From Verrucomicrobiales bacterium (GTDB taxonomy: Bacteria; Verrucomicrobiota; Verrucomicrobiia; Limisphaerales; UBA9464): a DNA stretch of 64,000 nt. Made by a program: the position numbers and the translations under genes. Below, piece by piece: positions 2,480 through 26,074 of this stretch (positions are counted from its first letter, which is position 1; every line of letters begins with the position of its first letter). A model generated the notes under the pieces. It did no database searches, was not told where the DNA came from, and saw only the letters and a program-made list of their open reading frames with translations. Where the stretch lies: positions 1 to 64,000 of the forward strand of contig JAIYBC010000033.1 in assembly GCA_027488845.1 (NCBI GenBank), read 5' to 3'.

Positions 2480-2528
2480 CTCTCCAGGTTCGTCTGCGGC
2501 GGGAAGGCCCGTCCGCGGGGTGCTTCCA

Positions 2529-4055
2529 TCAGTGGGACAGTGCGGCGACGGGTTCGGCCGCCGGGGTGGCCGGCGGGCGGGTGGCGGACTTCACGATCTC
2601 CCGGGCCACCGGTTCGATGCGGGTGCTGAGCAGGCCGGGTGCGACGCCGAACAGGAGCAGGGCGCCGACGAGGAGGGCGAGCGGCAGGCGTCGCCACCAT
2701 CCGGTGTCCTCGACCTTGGCCAATTCCGGGCGTTCCTCGCCGTAGAGGACGGCGCGGAGGGCGCGGAGCATGTAAACGCCGCCGAGGATGAGTCCGCTCC
2801 AGGCGGCCGCGAGGACCACCCAGGGCAGGGACTTCCAGGAGCCGAAGAGGACGGTGGCCTCGCCGGCGAAGTTGGCGAAGCCCGGGAGGCCGCAGCCGGC
2901 CATGAAGGCCATCACCAGCAGCGTGCCGAACACCGGCATGCGCTTGAGCAGGCCGCCGAGACGGGTCATGTCGACGGTGCCGGTCTGGGATTCGAGGTAG
3001 CCGCTGAGGGCGAAGCTCAGGGCGGCCAGCAGCGCGTGGGCGACCATCACGATGACGGTGCCGGTGACGCCGATGACGGTGAGGCTCGCGATGCCGAGGA
3101 AGGCGAAGCCCATGTGGGCGAGGCTGGAGTTGCCGATGAGGAGGTTGAGGTCCTTCTGGCGGAGGGCGACGAAGCCGCAGTGGAGGAGGTTGCCGACGCA
3201 GAGCCAGGCCAGCACCGGGAGCCAGGTGGCGGCGCCCTCGGGCAGCAGCGGAAGGGCGACCCGGAGGATGGCATAGAGGCCGGCCTTCTTGAGGATGCCG
3301 GCATGCATCATGGCGGTGGCGGTCGGGGCCGCGGCATAACCGCCCGGGGCCCAGGAATGGAACGGGAAGAGGCCGACCAGGGTGCCGAAGCCGAAGAGCA
3401 GCAGGGCGAAGATCCAGATCTGGGAGGTCGGGCTGAGAGGGTTGGCGGCGAGGGCGGCCTTGAGCGCGAGGACGTCGAAGGTCTTCGCACCGGTCGCCAC
3501 ATGGAGCGCGATGAGTCCGGCGAGGGCGGCGAGCGCGCCGAGGGTCAGGTAGAGCGTGATGCGGAACGCCTGGTAGGTCTTGTCCTCACCGCGTCCCCAG
3601 ACGCCGATCATGATGAACGTCGGCACCAGGGCCAATTCGTTGAAGAAGTAGAAGAACAGCAGGTCGTGCGAGGCGAAGGCGCCGAGGGCGCCGGCGATGA
3701 CGAGGAGCAGCAGGACGTAGAAGAGCTTCGGGTTGCGCTCGATGTTCCAGGAGGCGAGGACGGAGGCGAATCCGACGAGGCCGGTGACGAGCAGGAGCCC
3801 GATGTTCAGGCCGTCGGCGCCGACATGGTAGGCGAGCTCGAGGGAGCCGACATGGATCCAGGGCACGGTGGATTCGAACTGGAGGCCTTCCTGTCCCGGA
3901 TGGAATCCGAAGAAGGCGAGGACGGCGAGCCACGCGGTGAGGCCGGAGCCGACCACGGCGAGGGCTCGGACGACGACCCGGTAGTTTCCGGGCACCAGGA
4001 GGACCAGCAACGCCGTGAACAGCGGGGTCAGGATGAGCGGTGTGAGGGAGGCCAT
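2529..4055 (-). CDS. nuoM: NADH-quinone oxidoreductase subunit M, lacking the usual TM7 lysine
   Basis: Second antiporter-like proton channel subunit of complex I, 508 residues, about 14 helices. The conserved helix-5 glutamate is present (Glu140 in FFYFFNELALVPTF), as is the helix-8 lysine in HAGILKKAGLY. However, the helix-7 segment that in E. coli reads FAVKMPVVPLHGWLPDAH is here GTLVGLFPFHSWAPGGY: the lysine essential for pumping in E. coli is a leucine, and the PDAH loop is PGGY. This resembles the variant NuoM class rather than the canonical one, so proton transfer through this subunit may differ. It starts 1 base after the nuoL stop and precedes nuoN by 49 bases. Confidence 0.96.
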   Translation of the reverse strand: MASLTPLILTPLFTALLVLLVPGNYRVVVRALAVVGSGLTAWLAVLAFFGFHPGQEGLQFESTVPWIHVGSLELAYHVGADGLNIGLLLVTGLVGFASVLASWNIERNPKLFYVLLLLVIAGALGAFASHDLLFFYFFNELALVPTFIMIGVWGRGEDKTYQAFRITLYLTLGALAALAGLIALHVATGAKTFDVLALKAALAANPLSPTSQIWIFALLLFGFGTLVGLFPFHSWAPGGYAAAPTATAMMHAGILKKAGLYAILRVALPLLPEGAATWLPVLAWLCVGNLLHCGFVALRQKDLNLLIGNSSLAHMGFAFLGIASLTVIGVTGTVIVMVAHALLAALSFALSGYLESQTGTVDMTRLGGLLKRMPVFGTLLVMAFMAGCGLPGFANFAGEATVLFGSWKSLPWVVLAAAWSGLILGGVYMLRALRAVLYGEERPELAKVEDTGWWRRLPLALLVGALLLFGVAPGLLSTRIEPVAREIVKSATRPPATPAAEPVAALSH

Positions 4056-4056
4056 G

Positions 4057-6006
4057 TTACTTCCGGGCGAGGAGGACGACGAGGACGACGCCCACGGTGA
4101 AGAGGAAGGCGTAGGTCTGGATGCTGCCGGTCTGGGCGAGGCGGAGGGCGCGGCCGGTGAGGTCGACGGCGCCGGTCAGGCCGCGGACGAACAGTCCGGC
4201 GACCAGCCAGCGGTCGACCCAGTCGGCGACATGCGAGGCGAGGTTGTGCAGCGGGATGAAGACCGACTCGTAGATCTCGTCGAAGTAGAAGCGGTTGCGC
4301 ATCGCGCGGGACAAAAGTCCAAGGCGGGCCGGCAGGGGATCCTTCTCGGCCTTCCAGTAGAGTGAGAACGCGAGGGAGAAGCCGAACAACGCCGCCCCGA
4401 AGCCGAAGAACGCGGCGATGGGGTTGTGGTTGAACGGGCCGAAGAGGATGTCGCCGCCATGGCCATGGAATTCGGGGCGGAACTGGCGGGTGAGGTACTC
4501 GCCGATCGGCAGCCAGGCGACCGCAACGCTCGGGATCGCGAGGGTGACCAGGGGCCACTTCATGCTGCCCGGGGACTCGTGAGCGTGGTCCGCGGACCCG
4601 CTGCGGGCGCCGCCGAAGAAGGTCACCAGCAGCAGCCGGCTCATGTAGAAGGTGGTCAGGACGGTGACCAGGACGCCGACGCCGAACAGGACCGGATTCG
4701 ACTCCAGGGCGGTCGCGAGGATCTCGTCCTTGGAATAGAACCCGCTGAAGGGCGGGAGACCCGCGAGGGCGGCGGTCCCGATGAGGAAGGTCCAGAACGT
4801 GACCGGCATCTTCGCGCGGAGGCCACCCATCTTCCAGATGTCCTGCTCATGGTGGCAGGCGTGGATGACCGAGCCGGCGCCGAGGAAGAGCATGGCCTTG
4901 AAGAAGGCGTGGGTGACGAGGTGGTACATCGAGGCGGACGGATCGCCGTGCTTCGCACCGAGGCCGACGGCCATGACCATCAGGCCGAGCTGGGAGAGGG
5001 TGGAGTAGGCGAGGATGCGCTTGATGTCGTTCTGCTGGACCGCGATGACGGCGGCGAGCAGGGCGGTGAAGGCGCCGATGAACGAAAGGATCGTCGCCGC
5101 GGAAAGTCCGCCGAGGAATCCAAGGGCCGCGGGCCAGCCGGGGGCGGCGGTGTAGATGAAGAAGACGCGGCAGAGCATGTAGACGCCGGCCGCCACCATG
5201 GTGGCGGCGTGGATCAGCGCGGAGACCGGGGTCGGGCCCTCCATGGCGTCGGGCAACCAGACATGGAGCGGGAACTGGGCGCTCTTGCCCATGGCACCCA
5301 TGAACACGAGGAGACCGGCGATGCCGGCCATGGTGCCCAGGGCGGCGGGGTTCTCGACCAGCTTGGCCTTGGCCGCGGCGAAGTCGACGGTGCCCAAGGC
5401 GGACCAGACGACGAGGATGCCGAGCATGAAGCCGAAGTCGCCGATGCGGTTCGTGAGGAAGGCCTTCTTCGAGGCGTCCGCGGCGGCGGGACGTCCGTAC
5501 CAGAATCCGATGAGCAGGTAGGACGAGACGCCGACGAGTTCCCAGAAGAGGAACATCATCACGAAGTTGTCGGCGAGCACGATGCCGAGCATCGAGAACA
5601 CGAAGAGGCTGAGGCTGGAGAAGAAGCGCGGGTAGGAGGCGTCCTCGTGCATGTAGCCGGTGGAGTAGATCATCACCAGCGAGGCCACGCCGGTGACCAC
5701 GAGCAGCATCAGCAGCGAGAGGCCGTCGAGGTGCAGCCCGATGCGGACGTCGAGTCCCTCGACGGGCAGCCAGCGGAAAGGCGTGCAGTCCGCGGAGGAG
5801 CCGCCGAAGGCGAAGAGCAGGACGACGCTGAGGAGGAAGGAAAGGACGACTCCGCTGATGTTGAACAGGGCGGAGAGCGTGCGGTCCTTGCGGATGAGCA
5901 GGGTGGTGCCCGCGGCCATGACCAGGGGGATGAGCAGGACCATCCAGGCGAGATCCTGGAGGGTGGACCCGGAGCCTGCGGCGTGTTGGGCGACGGCGTG
6001 TTCCAT
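4057..6006 (-). CDS. nuoL: NADH-quinone oxidoreductase subunit L
   Basis: Largest antiporter-like subunit (649 residues) at the far end of the complex I membrane arm. It has the usual 14-helix antiporter core plus a C-terminal extension that carries the long lateral helix and an anchoring helix. The core motifs are canonical: LFWELVGVSSYLLIGFWY holds the helix-5 Glu, and GAMGKSAQFPLHVWLPDAMEGPTPVSA holds the helix-7 Lys followed by the PDAMEGPTPVSALIHAATMV signature. The canonical Lys here contrasts with its loss in neighbouring nuoM. ATG at 6006, 8 bases after the nuoK stop. Normal length for the family. Confidence 0.97.
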   Translation of the reverse strand: MEHAVAQHAAGSGSTLQDLAWMVLLIPLVMAAGTTLLIRKDRTLSALFNISGVVLSFLLSVVLLFAFGGSSADCTPFRWLPVEGLDVRIGLHLDGLSLLMLLVVTGVASLVMIYSTGYMHEDASYPRFFSSLSLFVFSMLGIVLADNFVMMFLFWELVGVSSYLLIGFWYGRPAAADASKKAFLTNRIGDFGFMLGILVVWSALGTVDFAAAKAKLVENPAALGTMAGIAGLLVFMGAMGKSAQFPLHVWLPDAMEGPTPVSALIHAATMVAAGVYMLCRVFFIYTAAPGWPAALGFLGGLSAATILSFIGAFTALLAAVIAVQQNDIKRILAYSTLSQLGLMVMAVGLGAKHGDPSASMYHLVTHAFFKAMLFLGAGSVIHACHHEQDIWKMGGLRAKMPVTFWTFLIGTAALAGLPPFSGFYSKDEILATALESNPVLFGVGVLVTVLTTFYMSRLLLVTFFGGARSGSADHAHESPGSMKWPLVTLAIPSVAVAWLPIGEYLTRQFRPEFHGHGGDILFGPFNHNPIAAFFGFGAALFGFSLAFSLYWKAEKDPLPARLGLLSRAMRNRFYFDEIYESVFIPLHNLASHVADWVDRWLVAGLFVRGLTGAVDLTGRALRLAQTGSIQTYAFLFTVGVVLVVLLARK

Positions 6007-6014
6007 TCGAGCGG

Positions 6015-6320
6015 TCAGAGTTTGAGGGTGGTGAGGTCCTCGACATGCGCCGTCTGGCGCTTGCGGTACAGGGCCACGATGAGGGCGAGACCGACGGCGA
6101 CCTCGGCGGCGGCGACGGTGATGATGAAGAAGACCATCACCTGGCCGTCGAGGTTCGCGTTGTAGCGCGAGAACGCCACGAGGGAGAGGTTGGCGGCGTT
6201 GAGCATCAGCTCGAGACCCATGAAGATCACGAGGAGGTTGCGACGCACGACCACGCCGAGCAGGCCGAGGCTGAAGAGCAGCCCGCTGACGATCAGGTAG
6301 TGTTGGAGGCCGACGTTCAT
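6015..6320 (-). CDS. nuoK: NADH-quinone oxidoreductase subunit K
   Basis: Small three-helix membrane subunit of complex I (101 residues) that carries buried glutamates of the central proton path. The helix-2 motif [19 protein letters not shown] and the helix-3 motif [20 protein letters not shown] each show the conserved Glu. The frame is open upstream to 6458, but homology begins at MNVGLQHYL. The ATG at 6320 therefore sets the start and gives the typical length of about 100 residues, and it leaves nuoJ (stop at 6349) non-overlapping. It lies between nuoJ (28 bases upstream) and nuoL (8 bases downstream). Confidence 0.96.
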
Positions 6321-6348
6321 GGAAGGTTGCTGGATCCGGTCCGGGTGG

Positions 6349-6864
6349 TCACTTGAGGTCCTTCTTGCTGAGCAGGATGACCCCGACCATGGCCACGAGG
6401 AGCAGGACGGAGAGGATCTCGAATGGGAGAAGCCAGTGGTTGAAAAGCACCTTGCCAAGCTCGGCGGTGTCGCCGACGGCGAGCCGGGTCTGGCCGGCGG
6501 GGGAGCCGGGCTTGGCCGAGAGCGCGGACACGGTGAGGATGCCGAGAAGGGCGGCGACGGCGACCGACCCGACGCCGACCGTGAAGGTCTTCAGGCGGCG
6601 TCGTTCCTCCTCCTTGATGTCGAGGAGCATGATGACGAAGAGGAAGAGCACCATCACGGCGCCGGCGTAGACGAGCACCTGGACGGCGGCGAGGAAGAAG
6701 GCGTGCAGGAGCAGGTAGAGCCCGGCGAGCGAGATGATCGTCAGCACCAGGAACATGGCGCTGGTGACCGGGTTGCGGCTGATCGGGTTCGCGACGGTGA
6801 GGAAGCCGAACAGCAGGGCCATCCCGGCGAAGGCGAAGAAGAGGAGGTCGGTGAACTGGGGCAT
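6349..6864 (-). CDS. nuoJ: NADH-quinone oxidoreductase subunit J
   Basis: Five-helix membrane subunit of complex I next to NuoK and NuoH, 171 residues. The diagnostic segment is [20 protein letters not shown] in helix 3, the flexible pi-bulge helix that links quinone chemistry to proton movement. A hydrophilic loop (about residues 95-135) separates the fourth and fifth helices, and the protein ends in a short Lys-rich tail. ATG at 6864, 19 bases after the nuoI stop; 28 bases separate it from nuoK. Length and order are normal for the family. Confidence 0.96.
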
Positions 6865-6883
6865 GTGGGTGTTCTCCTGGGCG

Positions 6884-7453
6884 TCACCGGGTCTGGACCG
6901 GGAAGGTCTCCTGCGCCTCGGCCTCCTCCAGCTTGTGCTTCCACTTCTGGATGCCGGCGTGGGTGCCGCCGAGCTTCAGCAGCTTCTCCTTGTTGAAGAC
7001 CATCTCGGTGCGGGACTCGCCGGTGAGGGAGTAGTCCTTCTGGAGGAAGATCGCCTCCTCCGGGCAGACCTCCTGGCACATGCCGCAGAAGATGCAGCGG
7101 AGCATGTTGATCTCGAATTCCTTCGGCATCTTCTCCGCGTTGCGTCGGTCGGCGGGCTGTCCGTCGGCGCCCGGAGGCGTGATGCGGATGGCCTTGGGCG
7201 GGCAGACGAACTCGCAGAGCTGGCAGCTGACGCACTTGGTCGCGCCGTCCTGGTCCTTCACCAGGTAGGGGGCGCCGCGGTAGCCCTCGGGGACGACCCA
7301 GCGTTCCTCGGGATACTGCATGGTGACGGACTTGCCCTTGAAGACGGTGTCCGCGAAGTGCTTTGCGGTGACCTTGAGTCCGCCGAGGATGGCCGGCAGG
7401 TAGGTGCGCTCGTAGAAGGTGAGCGGGGAGCGGTCGACGACTTTGGTGCTCAT
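6884..7453 (-). CDS. nuoI: NADH-quinone oxidoreductase subunit I (2x[4Fe-4S] ferredoxin-like)
   Basis: Peripheral-arm subunit that carries iron-sulfur clusters N6a and N6b and passes electrons towards NuoB. The 189-residue product has two complete ferredoxin motifs: CVSCQLCEFVCPPKAI and CIFCGMCQEVCPEEAI, each CxxCxxCxxxCP. The N-terminal amphipathic helix (ILGGLKVTAKHFADTVFK) matches the membrane-docking helix of the family, and the following MQYPEE is conserved. The open frame runs far upstream to 8419, but that is the antisense-like extension over nuoH. The ATG at 7453 (MSTKVVDRS) is the start that fits homology, leaving 17 bases to the nuoH stop. Confidence 0.97.
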   Translation of the reverse strand: MSTKVVDRSPLTFYERTYLPAILGGLKVTAKHFADTVFKGKSVTMQYPEERWVVPEGYRGAPYLVKDQDGATKCVSCQLCEFVCPPKAIRITPPGADGQPADRRNAEKMPKEFEINMLRCIFCGMCQEVCPEEAIFLQKDYSLTGESRTEMVFNKEKLLKLGGTHAGIQKWKHKLEEAEAQETFPVQTR

Positions 7454-7470
7454 GGGCGGGAGTAGGGGGT

Positions 7471-8550
7471 TCAGAGGGCCACGACCACGGCGGTGAGGAG
7501 GATGTTGGCGAGGGCGACCGGGATGAAGCGGCGCCATCCGATGTCCATGAGCTGGTCGTAGCGGAAGCGCGGAAGCATCCAGCGCACCCAGATGAACACG
7601 ACCATGAACACGGCCATCTTGGCGAGGAACACGCCGATGTGGAGCAGGCCGACGAGGAACGAGGCGGAAGGCGTGCTGAGCAGCGTGCCGGGCAGGGTCC
7701 AGCCGCCGCAGAAGAGCGTCACCATCATCGCCGACGAGGCGATCATGTTGGCGTACTCGCCGAGGAAGAAGAGGGCGAACTTCATCGAGCTGTACTCGGT
7801 GTGGTAGCCGCCCACGAGTTCGGTCTCGGACTCGGGAAGGTCGAACGGCAGGCGGTTGGTCTCGGCGAAGGCCGCGATCAGGAAGATCACGAAGGCGACC
7901 GGCTGCTTGAGGATCATCCAGCCGTGGTCGGCCTGGTACTTCACGATGTCGCCGAGGTTGAGGCTCTCGGACAGGAGGAAGATGGGGACCACGCTGAGGC
8001 CCATCGCGATCTCGTACGAGATCATCTGGGCGCTGGACCGGATGCCGCCGAGGAAGGGGTACTTGGAGTTCGACGCGTAGCCGGCGAGGACGATGCCGTA
8101 CACGCCGAGGGAGACGATGCCGAAGGTGTAGAGGATGCCGACGTTGAGGTCGGCGATGACCATCTTCTCGGAGCCGAGCGTCGACCCGAAGGGGATCACC
8201 GCCACGGTCATGAGCGCCGGGACCACGGTGATGGCCGGGGCGAGCCAGAAGTAGACCTTGCGGACGTAGTTCGGAGTGAAGTCCTCCTTGAGCATGAACT
8301 TCAGGCCGTCGGCCATCGGCTGGAAGATGCCGAGGCGGACCAGGAAGGGCCCGATGACCGGGATGTAGTCGACGAAGAAGGGCGAGGTGCGGTTCGGGCC
8401 GACGCGGTCCTGGATCCACGCCGAGACCTTGCGCTCGACGAGCACCGCGTAGGCGACGCCGGTCATGACCACGCCGAAGACCACGAGGATCTTCAGCGCG
8501 CTGAAGAGGACGAACTGGGTCGTCGGACTGAGGTACTGGAGGGATTCCAT
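7471..8550 (-). CDS. nuoH: NADH-quinone oxidoreductase subunit H
   Basis: Eight-helix membrane subunit (359 residues) that forms much of the quinone-binding chamber and joins the peripheral and membrane arms. Family signatures include AWIQDRVGPNR near residue 45, YPFLGGIRSSAQMISYEI and the acidic loop TNRLPFDLPESETELVGGYHTEYSSMKFALFFLGEY, which lines the E-channel. ATG at 8550, 7 bases after the nuoG stop; the downstream gap to nuoI is 17 bases, in keeping with a single transcript. Length is normal and no residue anomalies were seen. Confidence 0.97.
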   Translation of the reverse strand: MESLQYLSPTTQFVLFSALKILVVFGVVMTGVAYAVLVERKVSAWIQDRVGPNRTSPFFVDYIPVIGPFLVRLGIFQPMADGLKFMLKEDFTPNYVRKVYFWLAPAITVVPALMTVAVIPFGSTLGSEKMVIADLNVGILYTFGIVSLGVYGIVLAGYASNSKYPFLGGIRSSAQMISYEIAMGLSVVPIFLLSESLNLGDIVKYQADHGWMILKQPVAFVIFLIAAFAETNRLPFDLPESETELVGGYHTEYSSMKFALFFLGEYANMIASSAMMVTLFCGGWTLPGTLLSTPSASFLVGLLHIGVFLAKMAVFMVVFIWVRWMLPRFRYDQLMDIGWRRFIPVALANILLTAVVVAL

Positions 8551-8557
8551 GGCGGGG

Positions 8558-10279
8558 CTAGATCTTCACGTCGACGCCGGTGTCGCCGATCTTCGCCCAT
8601 TCGAGTCCGGCAAACGCCGGGACCTCGCGGGCCATCTGGTTGAAAAGGCCCTCGATGGTCGAGTAGCCGTTCTGTCCGGTCACGCCGTGCACGAGCTCGT
8701 GCAGGAACTCCCACTCGGCCCGGGCGTCGCCGGGGGCCTCGACGGCCTTCATGAACTTCTGCAGGCGTCCCTTCACGTTGACGAAGGTGCCCCGCTTCTC
8801 CGCGTGGGCGGCGCCCGGAAGGAGGTGGGTCGCCAGGGCGGTGGTCGCGTTGGGCAGGATGTCGCTGACGACCAGCGTCTCGAGCTTCGCGAGGGTCGCG
8901 GCCGGGATGCCGTGCTTCGTGACGTCCTCGCCGAAGACGACGAGCGTCTTGACGGTTCCGGCCTCGATGGCGGCGGCGATCTCCGGGATGCGGATGCCGG
9001 CCTCGGTGAACGAGATTCCGGTGAGGCGCGCGCCGTTGGAATTCGGGTTGCGGTCGGCGGCGACCAGCAGGCGGTCGGCCTCGCCTTCGCGGGCGACGGA
9101 ATCGGTCGTGGCACCGGTCTTCGCGGCCAGCTTCTTCAGCAGGTACAGCTCCTCGGTGGCCTGCCGGGCGGAGGCGACGACCGCGACGCTGCCCGCCGGG
9201 GCCTTGGAGAGGCGGGCGGTGAGGTCCTGCAGGGCGGCCGACCAGGTGGAACGGGTCCCGCGGACGAGCACCTCACGGAGCCGGTCGGCCCGGCCGATCC
9301 ACTTGTAGTTCAGGCGGCCGGAATCGCACATCCACGGGCCGTTGACCGCGTCGTTCTCGCGCGGTTCGTAGCGGTGCACGACCCCTTCGCGGGAGCCGAC
9401 GGTGATGTTGCAGCCGGTGCCGCAGGAGGTGCAGACGCTCTTGGATTCCTTGAGGAACCAGACGCGCATCTTGAAGCGGAAATCCTTCGACGTGAGCGCG
9501 CCCACCGGACAGAGGTCGACGGTGTTGAGCGTGTAGTTGTTGTCGAACTTGCCGGTCTCGAACGCGCTGATGGTGTTGTAGGAACCGCGGTTGACGATGC
9601 CGAGGGCGTCGTCGCCGGCGATGTCCTTGGAGAAGCGGATGCAGCGGGTGCAGAGCACGCAGCGCTCGTCGTCGAGAACGATGCGGGGTCCGAGGTCGAC
9701 CGCCTTGGGCTTGTGGACCTTGGCCTCGACGAAGCGGCTTCCGGCCTGTCCGTGCTGGACCGAGTACTCCTGGAGCTTGCACTCGCCGGCCTGGTCGCAG
9801 ATGGGGCAGTCCAGCGGGTGGTTGATGAGGAGCGATTCCAACACCGCCTCGCGCATCTGCAGGGTGGCCTTGGAATCGGCGTAGATCTCCATGCCCGGGG
9901 AGATCGGCGTGGCGCAGGCGATGGCGCCGCGGGGGGTGCCGGGTTCGTAGGGCAGGACCGACTTGGCGATCTTCGGGGAGCCGTCCTCGTTCAGGACGGG
10001 CTTCCGGGTCGCGGGATCCATCATCGGCGTGCCGAACTCGACGAGGCACATGCGGCAGTTGCCGGCGACGGGCAGCTTGTCGTGGTAGCAGTAGTGCGGG
10101 ATGTCCACGCCGGCACAACGGGCGGCCTGGAGCATCGTCGTCGGCTGGGGCTTGCCCTGCCAGTCGGGGTGGGTCTTCGGCACCTGGACGGTCTTGCCGT
10201 TGACCTTGACGGTCATGGTCTCGACCGGAGGCGGGGCCTGCGGGGCGGGGGCCGGAGCGGGTTGGGCGGGGGCGGACAT
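8558..10279 (-). CDS. nuoG: NADH-quinone oxidoreductase subunit G (short form)
   Basis: Iron-sulfur relay subunit of the complex I peripheral arm. The N-terminal half has the 2Fe-2S ferredoxin domain (CAGVDIPHYCYHDKL, NCRMC), the His/Cys motif HPLDCPICDQAGECKLQEY, and the pair CVLCTRC and VDLCPVGAL. A further cluster motif CTSCGTGCNITV follows. The molybdopterin-oxidoreductase-like C-terminal domain is much reduced: 573 residues in all, against roughly 700-900 in many homologues. The start is the ATG at 10279 (MSAPAQ); the frame is open to 10549 but that would overlap nuoF. A Pro/Ala-rich leader (about 20 residues) precedes the ferredoxin domain. It is 8 bases from nuoF. Confidence 0.95.
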   Translation of the reverse strand: MSAPAQPAPAPAPQAPPPVETMTVKVNGKTVQVPKTHPDWQGKPQPTTMLQAARCAGVDIPHYCYHDKLPVAGNCRMCLVEFGTPMMDPATRKPVLNEDGSPKIAKSVLPYEPGTPRGAIACATPISPGMEIYADSKATLQMREAVLESLLINHPLDCPICDQAGECKLQEYSVQHGQAGSRFVEAKVHKPKAVDLGPRIVLDDERCVLCTRCIRFSKDIAGDDALGIVNRGSYNTISAFETGKFDNNYTLNTVDLCPVGALTSKDFRFKMRVWFLKESKSVCTSCGTGCNITVGSREGVVHRYEPRENDAVNGPWMCDSGRLNYKWIGRADRLREVLVRGTRSTWSAALQDLTARLSKAPAGSVAVVASARQATEELYLLKKLAAKTGATTDSVAREGEADRLLVAADRNPNSNGARLTGISFTEAGIRIPEIAAAIEAGTVKTLVVFGEDVTKHGIPAATLAKLETLVVSDILPNATTALATHLLPGAAHAEKRGTFVNVKGRLQKFMKAVEAPGDARAEWEFLHELVHGVTGQNGYSTIEGLFNQMAREVPAFAGLEWAKIGDTGVDVKI

Positions 10280-10287
10280 CGCGGAAA

Positions 10288-11721
10288 TCAGTGATGGTTG
10301 GGGCTGGCGGCCATCTTGACGCCGTGCACGGGGCCGGCGCCTTGGGCGCGGGCGGCCTCGTCGGCGGCTCCCTTGGCCTCGAACTCGTCGCGGAACTTCT
10401 TCACGAAGCTGAGCACCGGCCAGGAGGCGGCCTCGCCGAAGGCGCAGATCGTCCGGCCTTGGATGTTCTGGGCAATGTGGGAGAGGTAGTCGGCGTCCGC
10501 CTTGCGTCCCTCGCCGTGGGCGAGTCGGTGGGTCGCCTTGGCCAGCCACAGCGCGCCCTCACGGCACGGGGTGCATTGGCCGCAGCTCTCATGCGCGTAG
10601 AATTCGGACAGGTTGCCGAGCGTCTCGACCATGCTCCGGGAATCGTCGAGCACGATCACCGCGCTCGAGCCGGACATCGTGCCGGCCTGCTGCAGGGAAT
10701 CGAAGTCGTACGGGAGATCCAGCAGCGGGACGTCGACCTTGGCCATCTGGCCGTCGGCGCCCTTGCGGTTCAGTTTGAAGACCTCGCCGGCCTTCAGGAC
10801 CTTGGAGGAGGAACCGCCGGGGATGATCGCCTTGAGCGTGCGTCCGGGGCGGAGGCCGCCGCCGAAGTTCGCGTCGTGGATCAGCTCGCCGAGGGTGACC
10901 TTGCCGACCTGGATCTCGTAGTAGCCGGGGCGCATCACGTCGCCGCTGAGGCTCACGATGCGGGTGCCGGTGTTGTTCGGCGTGCCCAGCTTCGCGTACT
11001 CGGCCGCGCCCATATTCACGATGTGGGTGACGTGGCAGAGCGTCTCCACGTTGTTCACGATCGTCGGGCACATGTAGAGCCCGAGGACGGCGGGGAAGTA
11101 GGGCGGCTTGATGCGGGGATAGGCCCGCTTGCCCTCGAGCGACTCGATGAGGCCGGTCTCCTCGCCGCAGATGTAGGCGCCGGCGCCGCGGTGGACGTGG
11201 ATCTCGAGGTCGTAGCCGGTGCCGAGGATGTTCTTGCCGAGGAATCCGTTCTCGCGGGCCTCCTTGAGGGCCTGGTTCAACAGGCGCGCGCCTTCGGGCA
11301 TCTCGCCGCGGATGTAGATGTAGGCGAGCTTCACGTCGTTGGCCCAGCACGAGATGATCATGCCCTCGACCAGCTGGTGCGGGTCCTTGTGGATGATCTG
11401 GCGGTCCTTGAACGTGCCCGGCTCGGACTCGTCGGCATTGCAGATCAGGTAGATCGGCTTGCCGCTGCGGCGGTCGACGAAGCTCCACTTGAGCCCGGCG
11501 GAGAAGCCGGCGCCGCCGCGGCCCCGGAGACCGGAGGCCTTGACGTCCTCGCGGACGACTTCCTGCGGAGAGAGCTTCTTGCCCTCGGCGAGTTCACGCA
11601 CCGGCGTGGCGAGCGCCTTCCTCAGGCCCGCGTATCCGCCATGACGCAGGTAGCACGCGATGTCCGGGGTGTAGCCCGGCTCGTCGATGTGCTTCGTGAT
11701 CAGTTTGAATTGTTCCGGCAT
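10288..11721 (-). CDS. nuoF: NADH-quinone oxidoreductase subunit F (NADH/FMN site)
   Basis: Subunit that binds NADH and FMN and carries cluster N3, where electrons enter complex I. The 477-residue product shows GLRGRGGAGFSAGLKWSF (FMN/NADH fold), CNADESEPGTFKDR, the loop YICGEETGLIESLEGKR, and the cluster ligands ESCGQCTPCREG with the distal Cys in GRTICAFGEAASWP. Full length for the family. ATG at 11721. Unlike other junctions in the cluster, 163 bases separate it from nuoE, and that gap holds a tRNA gene on the opposite strand. Confidence 0.97.
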   Translation of the reverse strand: MPEQFKLITKHIDEPGYTPDIACYLRHGGYAGLRKALATPVRELAEGKKLSPQEVVREDVKASGLRGRGGAGFSAGLKWSFVDRRSGKPIYLICNADESEPGTFKDRQIIHKDPHQLVEGMIISCWANDVKLAYIYIRGEMPEGARLLNQALKEARENGFLGKNILGTGYDLEIHVHRGAGAYICGEETGLIESLEGKRAYPRIKPPYFPAVLGLYMCPTIVNNVETLCHVTHIVNMGAAEYAKLGTPNNTGTRIVSLSGDVMRPGYYEIQVGKVTLGELIHDANFGGGLRPGRTLKAIIPGGSSSKVLKAGEVFKLNRKGADGQMAKVDVPLLDLPYDFDSLQQAGTMSGSSAVIVLDDSRSMVETLGNLSEFYAHESCGQCTPCREGALWLAKATHRLAHGEGRKADADYLSHIAQNIQGRTICAFGEAASWPVLSFVKKFRDEFEAKGAADEAARAQGAGPVHGVKMAASPNHH

Positions 11722-11775
11722 GGCAGTGCTTGACTGTGTGACGATTCTACCTAGCTTCTCCCGCGCTTACCGGCC

Positions 11776-11849
11776 TGCCCGATGGTGTAATGGTAGCACA
11801 ACAGTCTCTGAATCTGTTTGTCATGGTTCGAATCCATGTCGGGCAACCA
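11776..11849 (+). tRNA. trnQ: tRNA-Gln (anticodon CTG), antisense inside the nuo operon
   Basis: A complete cloverleaf can be read. The acceptor stem TGCCCGA pairs with TCGGGCA, the D-arm is GTGT-AATGGTA-GCAC, and the T-arm is CATGG-TTCGAAT-CCATG with a four-base variable loop. The anticodon loop CTCTGAA gives anticodon CTG, which reads CAG. The anticodon stem has one T-T mismatch next to the loop. Discriminator A and a genomically encoded CCA (11847-11849) complete the 3' end. The gene sits in the 163-base gap between nuoE and nuoF but on the other strand, so a nuo transcript would contain its antisense. Assignment by eye; a covariance-model scan would confirm. Confidence 0.95.
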
Positions 11850-11884
11850 CCTCAAAAGGCCGGATTTCCAAGCGAAGCTCCCCT

Positions 11885-12376
11885 TCAGGCCGCCTTCCCC
11901 TTCTGAAGGATCGCGTCCGCATCCGCGGACGAGACCTTGTGGTGGAGCTCCTCGTTGACCAGGACGACCGGGGCCGTGCCGCAGCTCGCGAGGCATTCGA
12001 CGAACTCGACCGTGAACTTTCCGTCCGGCGTCGTCTGCGGCGCGTGTGCGTGCGGATCCAGTCCGAGCCTGGAGCAGAAACGCTCCCGGAGCTCGCCGCT
12101 GCCCTGCAGGGCGCAGCTCAACGTGCGGCAGACCTTGACGTGCGTCTTCCCGAGCGGCTCCTGACGGAACATCGGGTAGAACGTCACCAGTTCGTACACG
12201 TTGATCGGCTGCAGGCCCAACTTGCGGGCGGTCCACTCCACGGCGTCCTTGGAGACGTATCCGAAGTGCTCCTGCAGCGCGTGCAGGAACATGAGCGACG
12301 CGCTCCGCTTGACCGGGTAGTGCGTCGTGATCTCGTCGAGCTCGGACTCGAGATGGCTGGGAACGGTGAAACTCAT
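11885..12376 (-). CDS. nuoE: NADH-quinone oxidoreductase subunit E ([2Fe-2S])
   Basis: 24-kDa-type subunit of the NADH dehydrogenase module, partner of NuoF, carrying cluster N1a. The thioredoxin-like fold has all four ligands: Cys83 and Cys88 (CRTLSC) with Cys128 and Cys132 (CLASC). The N-terminal helical part includes PVKRSASLMFLHALQEHFGYVS, typical of the family. 163 residues, normal length. ATG at 12376, 12 bases after the nuoD stop. The stop at 11885 is followed by the antisense tRNA-Gln, so transcription into nuoF must pass through the tRNA gene unless nuoF has its own promoter. Confidence 0.97.
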   Translation of the reverse strand: MSFTVPSHLESELDEITTHYPVKRSASLMFLHALQEHFGYVSKDAVEWTARKLGLQPINVYELVTFYPMFRQEPLGKTHVKVCRTLSCALQGSGELRERFCSRLGLDPHAHAPQTTPDGKFTVEFVECLASCGTAPVVLVNEELHHKVSSADADAILQKGKAA

Positions 12377-12388
12377 CGTCGGAATTCC

Positions 12389-13672
12389 TTATCGGTCACA
12401 CTCGCCCATCACGAAATCGAACGAGCCGAGGATCGACACGATGTCGCTCATCATGTGGCCTGGCAGCACCTCGGGCAGGATGCCGAGGTTCACGAACGAC
12501 GGGGCCCGGATCTTCAGCCGGTAGGGCGTGCCGCCACCGCGGCTGTGGATGTAGAAGCCGAGTTCCCCCTTCGGGTTCTCGGCTCCGAAATAGACCTCGC
12601 CCGGAGGCGCGTTGACCCCCTGGGTCACGATCATGAACTGGTGGATCAGCTCCTCCATGCCCGTCAGCACCTTGGTCTTCGGAGGCAAGGTGACCTTGCC
12701 GTCCTGGATGCTGACCGGTTCCCGCGACGCGTTGTCGGCCCCACCGGGGATGCGGTCGAGGCACTGGCGCAGGATCCGGACGCTCTGGCGCATCTCCTCC
12801 ATGCGGACGAGATAACGGTCGTAGCAATCGCCCACGGAACCCACCGGGACGTCGAACTCGAGGTCCTTGTAGACGAGGTAGGGGTTGGCCTTGCGGACGT
12901 CGTAGTCCACACCGCTGCCCCGCAGGTTCGGACCCGTGAGGCCGTAGTCGATGGCCAGCTGACGTGAAATGACGCCGACGTCGCGGGTGCGGTCCACGAA
13001 GATGCGGTTGCGGGTCAGCAACGTCTCGGACTCGGCGATGTTGAGAACGACCTCGTCGAGGAACTTGCGGACCGCCTGGATCCATCCCGGCGGACAGTCG
13101 CGGGTCAGGCCGCCCACCCGCGTGTAGCTGGTGGTGAAGCGGGCGCCGGTCAGCGACTCGCACAGATTGTAGATCTTCTCCCGCTCGGTGAAGGTGTGGA
13201 GGAAGACCGTCAGCGCGCCGACGTCCATCGCGAACGCGCCCAGGCCGAGCAGGTGGGCCGAGATGCGGGCCAGCTCGCAGCAGATGACCCGCAGGTACTG
13301 ACCGCGCGGCGGGATCGCGCCGTCGATGCCCATCAGCTTCTCGACGGCGAGGACGTAGGCGACGTTGTTCGCGAGCGGTGCGAGGTAGTCCAACCGGTCC
13401 GTGTAGGGCACGAACTGGTTGTAGGTCATGTTCTCGGCGATCTTCTCGTCGCCCCGATGGAGGTAGCCGACGTCGGGAATCGCCTTGGTGATGGTCTCAC
13501 CGTCCATCTCCACCAGGATCCGCAACACGCCGTGCGTGGACGGATGCGACGGGCCCATGTTGAGCACGAGCTTGTCGCCCTTGAGATCCTGGATGTCGTC
13601 GTCGGAGGCGGCCGCCACCGCGGCGGAAGCACGGGCCGCGGGGTCCTTGAATTCGATGGTCTGCGTGGCCAT
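12389..13672 (-). CDS. nuoD: NADH-quinone oxidoreductase subunit D
   Basis: 49-kDa-type subunit, related to the [NiFe]-hydrogenase large subunit, that forms the quinone site with NuoB. The 427-residue protein shows LNMGPSHPSTHGVLRILVEMDGE, the quinone-site loop GYLHRGDEK, and the C-terminal GYMGECDR-type ending (here FVMGECDR), which is the diagnostic end of NuoD. The hydrogenase nickel cysteines are absent, as expected. A 25-residue Ala-rich leader precedes homology. ATG at 13672, only 3 bases after the nuoC stop. nuoC and nuoD are separate genes here, not fused as in E. coli. Confidence 0.97.
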   Translation of the reverse strand: MATQTIEFKDPAARASAAVAAASDDDIQDLKGDKLVLNMGPSHPSTHGVLRILVEMDGETITKAIPDVGYLHRGDEKIAENMTYNQFVPYTDRLDYLAPLANNVAYVLAVEKLMGIDGAIPPRGQYLRVICCELARISAHLLGLGAFAMDVGALTVFLHTFTEREKIYNLCESLTGARFTTSYTRVGGLTRDCPPGWIQAVRKFLDEVVLNIAESETLLTRNRIFVDRTRDVGVISRQLAIDYGLTGPNLRGSGVDYDVRKANPYLVYKDLEFDVPVGSVGDCYDRYLVRMEEMRQSVRILRQCLDRIPGGADNASREPVSIQDGKVTLPPKTKVLTGMEELIHQFMIVTQGVNAPPGEVYFGAENPKGELGFYIHSRGGGTPYRLKIRAPSFVNLGILPEVLPGHMMSDIVSILGSFDFVMGECDR

Positions 13673-13675
13673 GGC

Positions 13676-14257
13676 TTACTCTTCGGGATTCCGGACGCGG
13701 GGTTCGCGGGCGATGGCGTCCTTGCCGCCGGCCACGGTGACGAAAGGTCCGCCCTCGAGGGGCGCGGACCGGGTGAAGGCGACCTCGGGCAATTCGGTGG
13801 GCTTGCCCGCCAGCGGGAAGTCCTTGCGCAGCGGGAAGTACGGATAGCCGTCCCACATCAGGATGCGCCGCAGGTCCGGATGACCCGAGAACCGGATGCC
13901 CATCATGTCGTAGACCTCGCGCTCATGCCAATCGGCCGTGCGCCACACACCGCAAACGGTGGGAACCTCCGACGACTCCTCTCCGACCGAGGTCTTGAGA
14001 CGCAGGTGGGCGTGGTGCCCGGTGCCGTAGAGTTCATAGACCACGGTCCAGCGGGGATCCTCGCCGTAGTTGTCGATGCTGCTGAGGTCCAACAACATGT
14101 CGAAGCCGAGGGTGCCTTTGGCAAACTGGCAGACCTCGACGATCCGGCCCGGGTCGGAAACGGTGAGGGTCGCCTCGCCGCGGAATTCGACCGGGGCGGA
14201 CAACAACTCGCCGAACTTCTCGCGAAGCTGGTTCGCGAATTCAATGGGTGTGGCCAC
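13676..14257 (-). CDS. nuoC: NADH-quinone oxidoreductase subunit C
   Basis: 30-kDa-type subunit of the complex I connecting module, 193 residues. Recognisable segments are LDLSSIDNYGEDPRWTVVYEL in the middle and the signature HEREVYDMMGIRFSGHPDLRRILMWDGYPYFPLRKDFPL near the C-terminus. The start is a GTG at 14257, since the frame begins MATPIEFANQLREKF and no in-frame ATG gives the family N-terminus. The C-terminal tail (about 30 residues, Arg/Glu-rich) extends beyond the conserved core. Twelve bases separate it from nuoB and three from nuoD, so translational coupling with nuoD is likely. Confidence 0.96.
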   Translation of the reverse strand: MATPIEFANQLREKFGELLSAPVEFRGEATLTVSDPGRIVEVCQFAKGTLGFDMLLDLSSIDNYGEDPRWTVVYELYGTGHHAHLRLKTSVGEESSEVPTVCGVWRTADWHEREVYDMMGIRFSGHPDLRRILMWDGYPYFPLRKDFPLAGKPTELPEVAFTRSAPLEGGPFVTVAGGKDAIAREPRVRNPEE

Positions 14258-14269
14258 GAAATCTCTTGG

Positions 14270-14872
14270 TTAACGTTGAAGGACCTCGCCGCGTTCTCCG
14301 AGTTCGATGCCCAAGGAGCCATACTTCTCCGGGGCGGCATCGCGCTTCAGGTCGCGGGTGATGGTTTCCTTGCCGACCTTGTTCTGCAGGCGGATCAAGG
14401 CGTCGAGAAGGGCTTCCGGCCGGGGCGGACATCCGGCCACGTACACGTCCACGGGAAGGATGTTGTCGACGCCTTGGAGCACCGCGTAGCTGCGGTACAT
14501 GCCACCGGTCGAGGCGCAGGCGCCCATGGCGATCACCCACTTGGGTTCGGCCATCTGCTCGTAGATGCGCCGGACGGCCAGGGCCATCTTGTAGGTGACC
14601 GTACCGGCCACGATCATCACGTCGGACTGCCGGGGCGAGAAACGCATCACCTCGGAACCGAAGCGGGAGATGTCGAACCGGCTGGCACCGACGGCCATCA
14701 GCTCGATGCCGCAGCAGGCCAGACCCATCGGCATCGGCCACAGCGAGTTCTTTCGGAACCAGTTCAGCGCCGCATCGACGGTGGTGTGGACGACTTCACC
14801 CTCGATCTTCGAGTTGTATCCGAATTCCGCGGTGGACGGACCACGGCCGGAGGCTGGGGAGGAGACATCCAT
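14270..14872 (-). CDS. nuoB: NADH-quinone oxidoreductase subunit B (cluster N2)
   Basis: Carries the terminal [4Fe-4S] cluster N2, which reduces quinone. All four cysteines are present: the tandem pair in LACCGIELM, one in [13 protein letters not shown] and one in [14 protein letters not shown]. 200 residues from the ATG at 14872; a TTG three codons further upstream (14881) is possible but less likely. This is the first gene of the cluster. nuoA, normally just upstream, is absent: the next gene upstream, 125 bases away, is aat. A CRP/FNR-like palindrome and a candidate promoter lie in that gap. Confidence 0.97.
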
Positions 14873-14947
14873 AAAAGACAAGGGACGGGGAGGAATCCCC
14901 GGGACGGGGCGAAACTATGTTTGCGTCTCCCGGAGCGGCAAGAGGGT

Positions 14948-14967
14948 TTTGTGAAGTTTTTCACAAA
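14948..14967. promoter_or_regulatory. CRP/FNR-type palindrome upstream of the nuo operon
   Basis: Perfect inverted repeat TTTGTGAA-N4-TTCACAAA, which contains the exact CRP/FNR-family core TGTGA-N6-TCACA. It lies 76 bases upstream of the nuoB ATG within the 125-base nuoB-aat gap. On the minus strand a plausible sigma-70 promoter follows it: TTGCCG, 16 bases, CATAGT. The same palindrome, with seven of the arm bases identical, occurs upstream of atpB. The regulator is not in the window; binding is inferred from the motif alone. Confidence 0.65.
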
Positions 14968-19780: not shown

Positions 19781-22130
<2,350 letters not shown>

Positions 22131-22160
22131 GGTCTGTGGGGCTCGGTGAGCAGGCCCGGA

Positions 22161-23687
<1,527 letters not shown>

Positions 23688-23714
23688 GTCGTCAGTGGGA
23701 GTTGGAAACGGTGT

Positions 23715-24107
23715 TCAGAAGCTGTTCTCGAGGGCGGCGAGCCGTGATTTCACGGTGCCGTCGTACACATCGCTGCCGACCTGGATTCGCAGGCCGCCGA
23801 TGAGCTCGGGTTTGATGAAGAACTGGAAGTCGAGGCCGGGGCCGTGGAGTCGGGTCAGGCTCGAACGGATTTCGGCCATGAGGGCGTCGGAGGTGGGCAC
23901 GGCGTTCTCCACGCGCACGGTGCGACGCTGGATGTCCAACTGCACCAGGCGTTGGAAGTGGGCCAGCGTGCCCAGGTAGTTGCGGGGCTTGGCCGCCAGG
24001 ACCTGGCTGACCGTCTGCCGGACACGTCCCTCGTCGAGGACGCCTTCACGGCGGCAGGCCAGGTAGAGGTCCTTCGCGTCGCGGCGGGCTTGTTTTCCGA
24101 TCTTCAT
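23715..24107 (-). CDS. atpH: ATP synthase delta subunit, shortened N-terminal domain
   Basis: Peripheral-stalk subunit linking F1 to the b subunits. The C-terminal domain is recognisable: IKPELIGGLRIQVGSDVYDGTVKSRLAALE matches the family's final beta/helix block. The product is only 130 residues, against about 175-185 usually. The N-terminal six-helix bundle appears cut to about 60 residues (RRDAKDLYLACRREGV, then RNYLGTLAHFQRLVQLDIQRRT). The ATG at 24107 is 22 bases after the atpF stop and no upstream start would lengthen it without running into atpF. The shortening therefore looks genuine and not a mis-called start. Role is assigned from position plus the C-terminal motif. Confidence 0.9.
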   Translation of the reverse strand: MKIGKQARRDAKDLYLACRREGVLDEGRVRQTVSQVLAAKPRNYLGTLAHFQRLVQLDIQRRTVRVENAVPTSDALMAEIRSSLTRLHGPGLDFQFFIKPELIGGLRIQVGSDVYDGTVKSRLAALENSF

Positions 24108-24129
24108 CCTCGGGTTCCGGTGGCGACGT

Positions 24130-24693
24130 TCAGGCGGCGAACTGCTGCTGGGTCTCCTGGGCGAGGCGCTGGCGGTCGGCGTCGGTCAGGATCTTGCCGG
24201 TGACCTGCACGGAGGCGGCCACCACCAGGCGGCCCACTTCCTTGCGCAGCTCGAGCCGCATGCGGTTGAACTCGGCCTCGTTGGCCAGCTTGGCCTTGGC
24301 GATGATCTCGGCCGCGGCGGCCACGGCGCGCTGCGTCTCGGCCTCGGCGATCTTCGCGGCGGCGGCGCGGGCCTCCTCGACGATGCGGGTCGCCTGGGCT
24401 CCGGCCTCGGCGAGCACGCGCTTGCGGTCCTCGTCGGCCTTGGCCAGGTCGGCCTTCATCTTCTCCGCGGCGGCAAGGCTGTCGGAGATCTTCTTCTCAC
24501 GGTCGTCCAGCAGGGCCAGCAGCGGCTTGTACGCAAACCGGTGCAGCAGGAAGGCGACGATGAAGAAGCCGATGAGCTGGGAGACGAAGAGCTGGGTGTT
24601 GAACCCGAACTTCTCACCCACCTCGGCGGCGGTGTGCTTGAGACCGTCTACGACTCCGCCTTCGGTGGCGGCCAGGAGGAAACCCGATTGCAT
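24130..24693 (-). CDS. atpF: ATP synthase subunit b
   Basis: Membrane-anchored peripheral-stalk subunit, 187 residues from the ATG at 24693; a GTG seven codons earlier is the alternative. One transmembrane helix (about 30-50, QLFVSQLIGFFIVAFLLHRFAYKPLLALLDDREKKI) is followed by a long, highly charged Ala/Glu/Lys coiled coil typical of b. The conserved RxxxIxxxLxxAE pattern appears as REKKISDSLAAAEKMK. An unusual hydrophilic stretch of about 25 residues precedes the helix (ATEGGVVDGLKHTAAEVGEKFGFN). It is 48 bases from atpE and 22 from atpH. Only one b-type gene is present in the operon. Confidence 0.95.
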   Translation of the reverse strand: MQSGFLLAATEGGVVDGLKHTAAEVGEKFGFNTQLFVSQLIGFFIVAFLLHRFAYKPLLALLDDREKKISDSLAAAEKMKADLAKADEDRKRVLAEAGAQATRIVEEARAAAAKIAEAETQRAVAAAAEIIAKAKLANEAEFNRMRLELRKEVGRLVVAASVQVTGKILTDADRQRLAQETQQQFAA

Positions 24694-24741
24694 ACTCAGT
24701 GGAAAGGGAGACACGGAGCCGTTTTCACGGCCCCGTGAGGG

Positions 24742-25002: not shown

Positions 25003-25968
25003 TCAGTGGTGTCCGCCCTCCTCCGCATGCGCGTGCTCCTCGGAGTGCGTGCACATGAGCGAGGTGAAGACCGCGGTGAGAAGCGTGAAGACGAGCGCCT
25101 GGATCAGGCCGACCATGAGCTCGAGCCCGTAGAAGGGAAGCGCCACGAGCCAGCCGAAGATCGGCCCGCCGAGGTTGAGCATGGTCTCCAGCAGGGATTC
25201 GCCGGCGTAGATGTTGCCGAAGAGACGGAAGGTCAACGAGATGGGACGGATCATGATGGAGATGACCTCCAGGAATCCGACCAGGAAGAACATCACCAGC
25301 AACAGCACCTTGAGAATGCCCTTGTCCTCGCCGTGGTAGACGAAGATGTGGGAGAGGAAGCCTCCGACGCCGTTGGCCTTGATGGACCAGATCAGCCAGC
25401 ACGCGAAGAAGCCCACGGCCAAGGCCAGGGTCATGTTCAGGTCGGCGTCGGCGCCGCGGAGGATCGGACGGGAGATGTGGTGGAGGGCGCCGTTCGCATC
25501 GGGATGACCGAAACCGATCGAGCCGACACCGGGCAGCAGGCCGAACCAGTTGGCCGAAGCGATGAAGAGGAAGACGGTGGCGAAGAACCAGAAGGTGTCC
25601 TTGGCCAGCTTCGGGCCGAGGATGCCGCCGAGGAAGTCGCGGAGGGATTCCACGATCCATTCGGCGAAGTTCTGGAGGCCCTTGGGGACCATCTGGATGT
25701 TGCGGGTGGCCAGCTGGGCGAAGGTGATCAGGCCAAGGGCGACGATGGCCATGACCAGCATCGAGTTGGTCACCTTGAAGGCCCCGATCTCGTAGATGAC
25801 CGGCGCCGCGAGGGGGAGACCCTCCTCGGCGTGGGCCGCATGCGCCACATGGGTGGCGGCGCCGTGCGCGGCCGCCGCGGCCGCCTCGACGGCATGCTCC
25901 GCACCAAGGACCGCCGTCGCGGTCCCCACCAACAGGGCCATCACCTTGAGCAAACTGGGCAAGCGCAT
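25003..25968 (-). CDS. atpB: ATP synthase subunit a
   Basis: Stator membrane subunit that forms the proton half-channels, 321 residues. The essential arginine lies in RPISLTFRLFGNIYAGESLL. Other family blocks are GLQNFAEWIVESLRDFLG and SANWFGLLPGVGSIGF. An N-terminal signal-like segment (RLPSLLKVMALLVGTATAVLGAEH) and an Ala/His-rich linker of about 40 residues precede the first homologous helix, and the C-terminus is His-rich (EEHAHAEEGGHH). The start is the ATG at 25968; the frame is open to 26127 but those residues cross the regulatory palindrome at 26057-26074. First gene of atpBEFHAGDC; no atpI is seen. Confidence 0.97.
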   Translation of the reverse strand: MRLPSLLKVMALLVGTATAVLGAEHAVEAAAAAAHGAATHVAHAAHAEEGLPLAAPVIYEIGAFKVTNSMLVMAIVALGLITFAQLATRNIQMVPKGLQNFAEWIVESLRDFLGGILGPKLAKDTFWFFATVFLFIASANWFGLLPGVGSIGFGHPDANGALHHISRPILRGADADLNMTLALAVGFFACWLIWSIKANGVGGFLSHIFVYHGEDKGILKVLLLVMFFLVGFLEVISIMIRPISLTFRLFGNIYAGESLLETMLNLGGPIFGWLVALPFYGLELMVGLIQALVFTLLTAVFTSLMCTHSEEHAHAEEGGHH

Positions 25969-26056: not shown

Positions 26057-26074
26057 TTGTGAAATGTTTCACAA
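26057..26074. promoter_or_regulatory. CRP/FNR-type palindrome upstream of atpB
   Basis: Perfect inverted repeat TTGTGAA-N4-TTCACAA containing TGTGA-N6-TCACA, the same core as the site upstream of nuoB. Its edges lie 88 bases from both the atpB ATG (25968, minus) and the divergent metallopeptidase ATG (26163, plus), so it is central in the 194-base divergent gap. Either or both genes could be controlled. The identity of the binding protein is inference from the motif. Confidence 0.65.

Follow-up and report, generated by a model that had tools for sequence, protein, structure and literature searches.

The 64,000-nucleotide stretch analysed here (the window) holds the genes of complex I and of the ATP synthase, and the same palindrome stands ahead of both. 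The question raised by this locus is which regulator would bind the two copies, and in which direction it would act on the genes behind them. The original prediction assigned the pair to the CRP/FNR type. Herein, we propose that both palindromes are very probably operators of the redox-sensing repressor Rex; judging from the genomes compared, the entire respiratory chain seems to be under Rex control in this verrucomicrobial group.

The two palindromes and the operons behind them

Ahead of the complex I operon, the predicted Rex operator (ROP) lies at 14948..14967 and reads TTTGTGAA-GTTT-TTCACAAA, and its counterpart at the ATP synthase operon lies at 26057..26074 (TTGTGAAATGTTTCACAA; read directly, TTGTGAA-ATGT-TTCACAA). 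Upon re-reading the sequence, both were found where they had been placed originally, both are exact TTGTGAA-N4-TTCACAA palindromes, and the TGTGA-N6-TCACA core named at that time is contained in the site. The first gene of the complex I operon, nuoB (14270..14872, minus strand; NCBIfam NF011390, E 1.8e-99), starts upon translation with the ATG at 14872 on the minus strand, and 76 bases lie between this ATG and position 14949, in agreement with the distance given before. The remaining cluster (1001..14257, minus strand) comprises C, D, E, F, G, H, J, K, L, M and N-type subunits; an I subunit was not confirmed there, and nuoA was not observed ahead of nuoB, with which the cluster starts. The aat gene is located directly upstream of this nuoB-headed cluster, as in several family members, and a tRNA-Gln (CTG) gene (11776-11849, plus strand) lies on the opposite strand in the nuoF-nuoE gap within the cluster. 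The predicted nuo core promoter spans 14912..14941 on the minus strand, with the -35 element TTGCCG at 14936-14941 and the -10 element within CATAGTTT at 14912-14919. This promoter, put forward earlier as TTGCCG-N16-CATAGT, is supported by the relatives, which have CTTGC, approximately 17 bp and TA(a/g)nTT at the same place. The first gene of the other operon, atpB (ATP synthase subunit a; 25003..25968, minus strand; PF00119, E 1.4e-44), has its probable start codon at 25968, and the downstream atp genes, together spanning 19781..24714 on the same strand, include atpF (24130-24714), atpA (22161-23687) and a beta-type ATP synthase subunit (19781-21232).

Two copies had been considered improbable by chance, and the counts agree with this view. 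Exact TTGTGAA-N4-TTCACAA was matched twice in the 64-kb window and never in 100 dinucleotide shuffles. Throughout the genome (5,390,984 bases in 69 contigs, 95% complete), the exact pattern TTGTGA-N6-TCACAA occurred in two places only, which are the nuo and atp sites, and one further site was found with one mismatch, while a reversed control pattern yielded none. At two mismatches, 33 sites were found versus 18 of the control, and thus these looser matches are mostly noise. The third site, TTGTGAAAACTTTCACGA, is located on contig 28, approximately 70 bases before a small secreted-protein gene (726-1430 of locus L003, minus strand), which is followed by ctaA, a UbiA-family gene (ctaB), COX1, COX3, COX4 and SCO1. 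The secreted protein, referred to below as the product of the oxidase head gene, has a sub-threshold Pfam match only; in our own reading of its sequence, it contains a copper-like motif, CNVHPWM. All three sites returned by the genome scan are therefore ahead of respiratory operons, and complexes I, V and IV are each preceded by one of the three best sites in the genome.

Conservation of the sites and the predicted regulon

Conservation of the sites in related genomes was observed upstream of both nuoB and atpB. First, the site was kept with at most two mismatches in all 30 family atpB loci read, the present one included (no mismatch in 5, one in 18 and two in 7), whereas shuffles reached two mismatches in 1% and never fewer. 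Second, among the best 80 of 577 nuoB relatives, one of which has no usable upstream sequence, the 79 named Verrucomicrobiota loci contained 23 exact and 4 one-mismatch sites (27/79 at no more than one mismatch), beginning 53-114 bases before the nuoB match. One of the exact nuo sites belongs to a cultured relative, Roseibacillus persicicus KCTC 12988 (L069). In the other genomes sampled from the same genus (L179-L186), a site with at most one mismatch precedes nuoB in eight of eight. In the family, all 39 genomes have a site at this threshold, but the control pattern gives 58 matches there versus 203. Third, the 116 sampled genomes of the order carry 164 exact sites versus 8 of the control pattern. 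The possibility that chance or a local repeat produced the palindromes, which has only the shortness of the motif in its favour, is thus vanishingly small and already refuted by the shuffles, the control counts in the order and the uninterrupted series of atpB loci.

The sites also co-occur with Rex. Of the 116 genomes in the order, 72 have both the site and Rex, 11 the site only, 11 Rex only, and 22 neither (Fisher p 3e-8, with genomes treated as independent of kinship). In 65 genomes sampled from the rest of the class, Rex exceeds the cut-off in four, and each of these contains 7-9 exact sites; five of the other 61 carry a single one. No Rex match was obtained in 17 genomes of one genus (g89, which we guess to be Akkermansia), two of which have one site each. 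Outside the class, PF06971 scores above its cut-off in 103 of 128 genomes sampled from the phylum, but an exact site is present in only 20. In other words, the link between operator and Rex holds in the order and the class, but not phylum-wide by the exact pattern. The PF06971 scores outside the class are mostly lower, suggesting that the Rex of the wider phylum may use another operator; the matches there often number two per genome, with few exact sites.

The genes behind the sites are largely those of the respiratory chain. The order has 164 exact sites, and 70 of the 75 places listed among them were read. In 58 of these 70, the site stands ahead of one of four gene types: 28 are located before nuoB, 2 between nuoB and a divergent actA, 1 before actA, 19 before the oxidase head gene, and 8 before atpB. 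The other 12 precede none of these four gene types. We take actA to be the cytochrome of alternative complex III, and its Pfam matches are to multihaem cytochrome c families. In the genome of the window, the alternative complex III gene has no site at up to two mismatches in the 3.6 kb read, and it is thus not claimed as a target there. After the oxidase head gene, ctaA is next on the same strand in 25 of 26 loci of relatives; the 26th (L127), in which the site is unusually far away (249 bases), ends at that point. A search of 38 other genomes in the family returned 29 loci, comprising 23 nuo, 4 oxidase, 1 actA and 1 other. In three genomes of two other families (G336, G327 and G215), 20 of the 21 sites read are located before nuoB/D/F/G/H, atpB, actA, an NDH-2-like gene, a cytochrome c gene or a polyprenyl synthetase gene, and the exception is L292, which is unassigned. 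These 21 were read out of 24 (5 of 8 in G215; in G339, 1 of 8 was read; 5-kb context), with eight of the genes checked using Pfam and the rest through tblastn or resemblance. The complex I genes are dispersed in three genomes (L284-L303), and separate nuo genes have their own predicted Rex operator; genomes with scattered complex I genes, each with its own operator, represent a natural replicate of the prediction. Taken together, the genome-wide rarity, the conservation and the nature of the operons carrying the site support the original idea of a shared global regulator of energy metabolism.

Rex and the CRP/FNR alternative

The family to which this regulator had been assigned was not borne out. 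One Rex gene was found in the genome (PF06971, 67.7 bits, E 6e-18), which also carries PF02629 over the cut-off. All eight PDB sequences matched by its product are Rex (best E 8e-42), seven of them deposited as such and one as an AT-rich DNA-binding protein. The protein has a winged HTH and a Rossmann NAD(H) domain with a sensing-type Tyr after the NAD motif. A comparison of 31 Rex proteins, of which 30 belong to the order and one to another family, showed QLRKDL in the recognition helix, Arg59-Gly60 in the wing and Tyr99 (fragment numbering) in every one; the NAD motif GxGNLG was nearly invariant, with the Asn kept in 30. The Lys, the Arg-Gly pair and the Tyr of Rex are described as DNA and nicotinamide contacts in passages of earlier studies (PMC8836258; PMC8063818), and we infer from the alignment that the conserved residues observed here are equivalent to the published contact residues. 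The ROP consensus given in passages of two further reports is TTGTGAA-N4-TTCACAA (PMC8376106; PMC5355995), a form of the Rex operator that also appears in PMC5317091, quoting Ravcheev et al. 2012. Thus, Rex is present, its published operator is identical to the palindromes of the window, and it co-occurs with the sites.

A different possibility is that a cAMP- or oxygen-responsive activator of the CRP/FNR family binds TGTGA-N6-TCACA ahead of both operons. The site of the CRP regulon is TGTGA-N6-TCACA, and this core is contained in the palindromes; since it is common to the ROP and the CRP site, the motif alone is not decisive. The central half-sites are shared by both systems, but the outer TT/AA is conserved here as well. 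Activators can work from a position just upstream of the -35 element, where the nuo site is located. Against this assignment, a search of the 95%-complete genome using two Pfam models only, HTH_Crp_2 and cNMP_binding, found no protein with a cNMP-binding domain joined to a CRP-type HTH, such that the CRP/FNR assignment fails by the refuting condition originally named for it. Furthermore, the sites track Rex over the 116 genomes of the order and the 65 of the class, and the nuo core promoter is equally good without the site (see below). A CRP/FNR-type activator therefore appears very improbable, and Rex remains the preferred regulator.

The individual matches to the two models were also inspected. 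Judging by their translations and gene neighbourhoods, we take the three proteins matching HTH_Crp_2 to be a plasmid-type replication protein, an MntR/DtxR-like regulator and a GntR/LacI-like regulator, and they were rejected as CRP/FNR members. Only two proteins matched the cNMP-binding model, and neither was accepted: one is a histidine kinase (L159, 1276-2559), in which the cyclic-nucleotide-binding domain is fused to the kinase with no detected DNA-binding domain, and the other likewise has no detected DNA-binding domain.

The rex gene itself does not seem to belong to the regulon in the order, as no site at up to two mismatches was found before rex in any of 30 loci, four of which have less than 600 bases upstream and one of these only 6. 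In two distant members of the phylum (L252 and L253), a site lies 56 and 38 bp, respectively, before the start of the Rex match, which suggests self-control of rex in those genomes, but not in the order.

Position of the operators and direction of control

The nuo, cox and atp operators adjoin or overlap a conserved -35-like element, i.e. the predicted promoter of the downstream gene. A TTG was looked for only 3-9 bases downstream of the site, and it occurs 5-8 bp downstream in 74 of 76 unique nuo promoters; the two rows lacking it are both from L035. In the 74 aligned promoters, in which TTG is invariant by selection, a C precedes it in 72, a TA(a/g)nTT element follows approximately 17 bases beyond, and the last base of the -10 element is T in 67. 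The oxidase promoters have the same 5-8 bp gap between site and TTG in 26 of 27, the odd one again being L127, and this spacing places the centre of the operator near -50 at both kinds of promoter. The arrangement at atp is different. In all 14 promoters profiled, an A tract and a C come before the site, and 17 bases past TTGTGA there is a CA(a)CnT-like hexamer (C 12, A 13, A 10, C 12 and T 12 of 14). These 14 had been selected with a protein from a wrong reading frame of the atpB stretch, and the correct frame bore out the atp site class and the 30 family loci. Thus, the atp operator itself seems to supply, and hence to contain, the -35 element, with its TTGTGA half on the minus strand coinciding with the putative element and its centre near -26; the inferred atp -10 agrees poorly with the standard consensus. 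The A tract, 5-9 bases before the operator on the minus strand upstream of 26074, resembles an UP element, with A in 13-14 of 14 promoters at each of five positions.

These positions also bear on the idea that the palindromes act at the RNA level, as transcription terminators or hairpins, instead of binding a protein. They are inverted repeats in intergenic DNA, and the nuo copy stands 30 bases past the aat stop. However, neither the nuo nor the atp palindrome is followed by a T run, the nuo site is upstream of the -35 element and thus outside the leader of the nuo promoter, the sequence itself is conserved beyond mere pairing, and aat neighbours the site in some of the loci read but not in all. 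The probability of this explanation is close to nil, and we continue with the reading as Rex operators.

The direction of control might be judged from the loci with no site. Within the 130 bases before the nuoB match, irrespective of the presence of Rex or of a nuoA start, a core promoter of the nuo kind was found in 39 of 52 loci without the site versus 22 of 27 with it, and in 7% of shuffles. The mean number of consensus matches, out of 12, was 6.5 without and 6.7 with the site. As the core promoter is equally frequent and equally good in both groups, the operator looks more like a repressor site that has been added than an activator site on which the promoter depends, and since relatives with no ROP keep the core promoter, Rex probably represses when NADH is low. 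By analogy with the Rex proteins described, we infer the binding of Rex, its release by NADH and the direction of control as follows. At a low NADH/NAD+ ratio, the Rex dimer with NAD+ would bind the sites and hold back three respiratory complexes (I, IV and V), joined in some relatives by alternative complex III. At atp, where the operator would cover the -35 element and the spacer, RNA polymerase might be blocked directly; at nuo and the oxidase operon, where the operator abuts the upstream edge of the -35 element (centre approximately -50), polymerase recruitment might be hindered instead. Upon a rise in NADH, through oxygen limitation or a blocked chain, Rex would be released, and the respiratory complexes could be made together.

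The two operator positions could also be taken to mean that Rex is an activator at nuo and cox, with the operator centre near -50, and a repressor at atp. The site lies 5-8 bp before TTG in the former and seems to hold the -35 element in the latter, and the nuo, atp and rex operators of S. avermitilis each include the -35 element according to one report (PMC5355995). However, the loci with no site keep the same core promoter, with no sign that nuo needs the help of Rex, and Rex is described as a repressor in the published accounts, as far as the passages concerned extend (PMC8836258; PMC8063818; PMC8376106; PMC5355995). We consider activation at nuo and cox unlikely, and the same doubt applies to its order-wide form, in which Rex would activate complex I and the haem-copper oxidase at low NADH and repress the ATP synthase, depending on position. 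If this dual action were true, then one NADH sensor would set the ratio of electron transport to ATP synthesis. Repression at all three operons remains the preferred reading, and with two operator positions the action of Rex from outside the core promoter is directly testable.

The predicted regulon largely resembles those of Streptomyces. The Rex regulon of S. avermitilis includes atpIBEFHAGDC, cydA1B1CD, nuoA1-N1, rex-hem, hppA and ndh2 in the passages available from PMC5355995, and that of S. coelicolor is recounted in PMC8063818. No published verrucomicrobial Rex regulon was found in a literature search, to which subscription journals were mostly inaccessible. The regulator, the operator and the overlapping targets are known already, as in actinobacteria: the operator sequence is the same, the complex I and ATP synthase operons are placed under one Rex (here by prediction), and Rex is of the canonical type, with a winged HTH and an NAD-binding domain. 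Several differences are also observed. First, the oxidase target found here is a haem-copper oxidase operon with ctaA-ctaB. Second, some relatives also have the site at alternative complex III. Third, rex has no self-control site in the 30 loci of the order that were read. Fourth, the nuo and cox operators are located upstream of the -35 element and not over it, a position that differs from S. avermitilis, where the nuo, atp and rex operators cover it. What is new is thus the lineage, the haem-copper oxidase and alternative complex III operons as predicted targets, and the operator position. The prediction would link the respiratory chain of a large and mostly uncultured lineage to a defined regulator, signal (NADH/NAD+) and regulon, in which the same operator stands ahead of complexes I, IV and V and, in certain relatives, ahead of alternative complex III.
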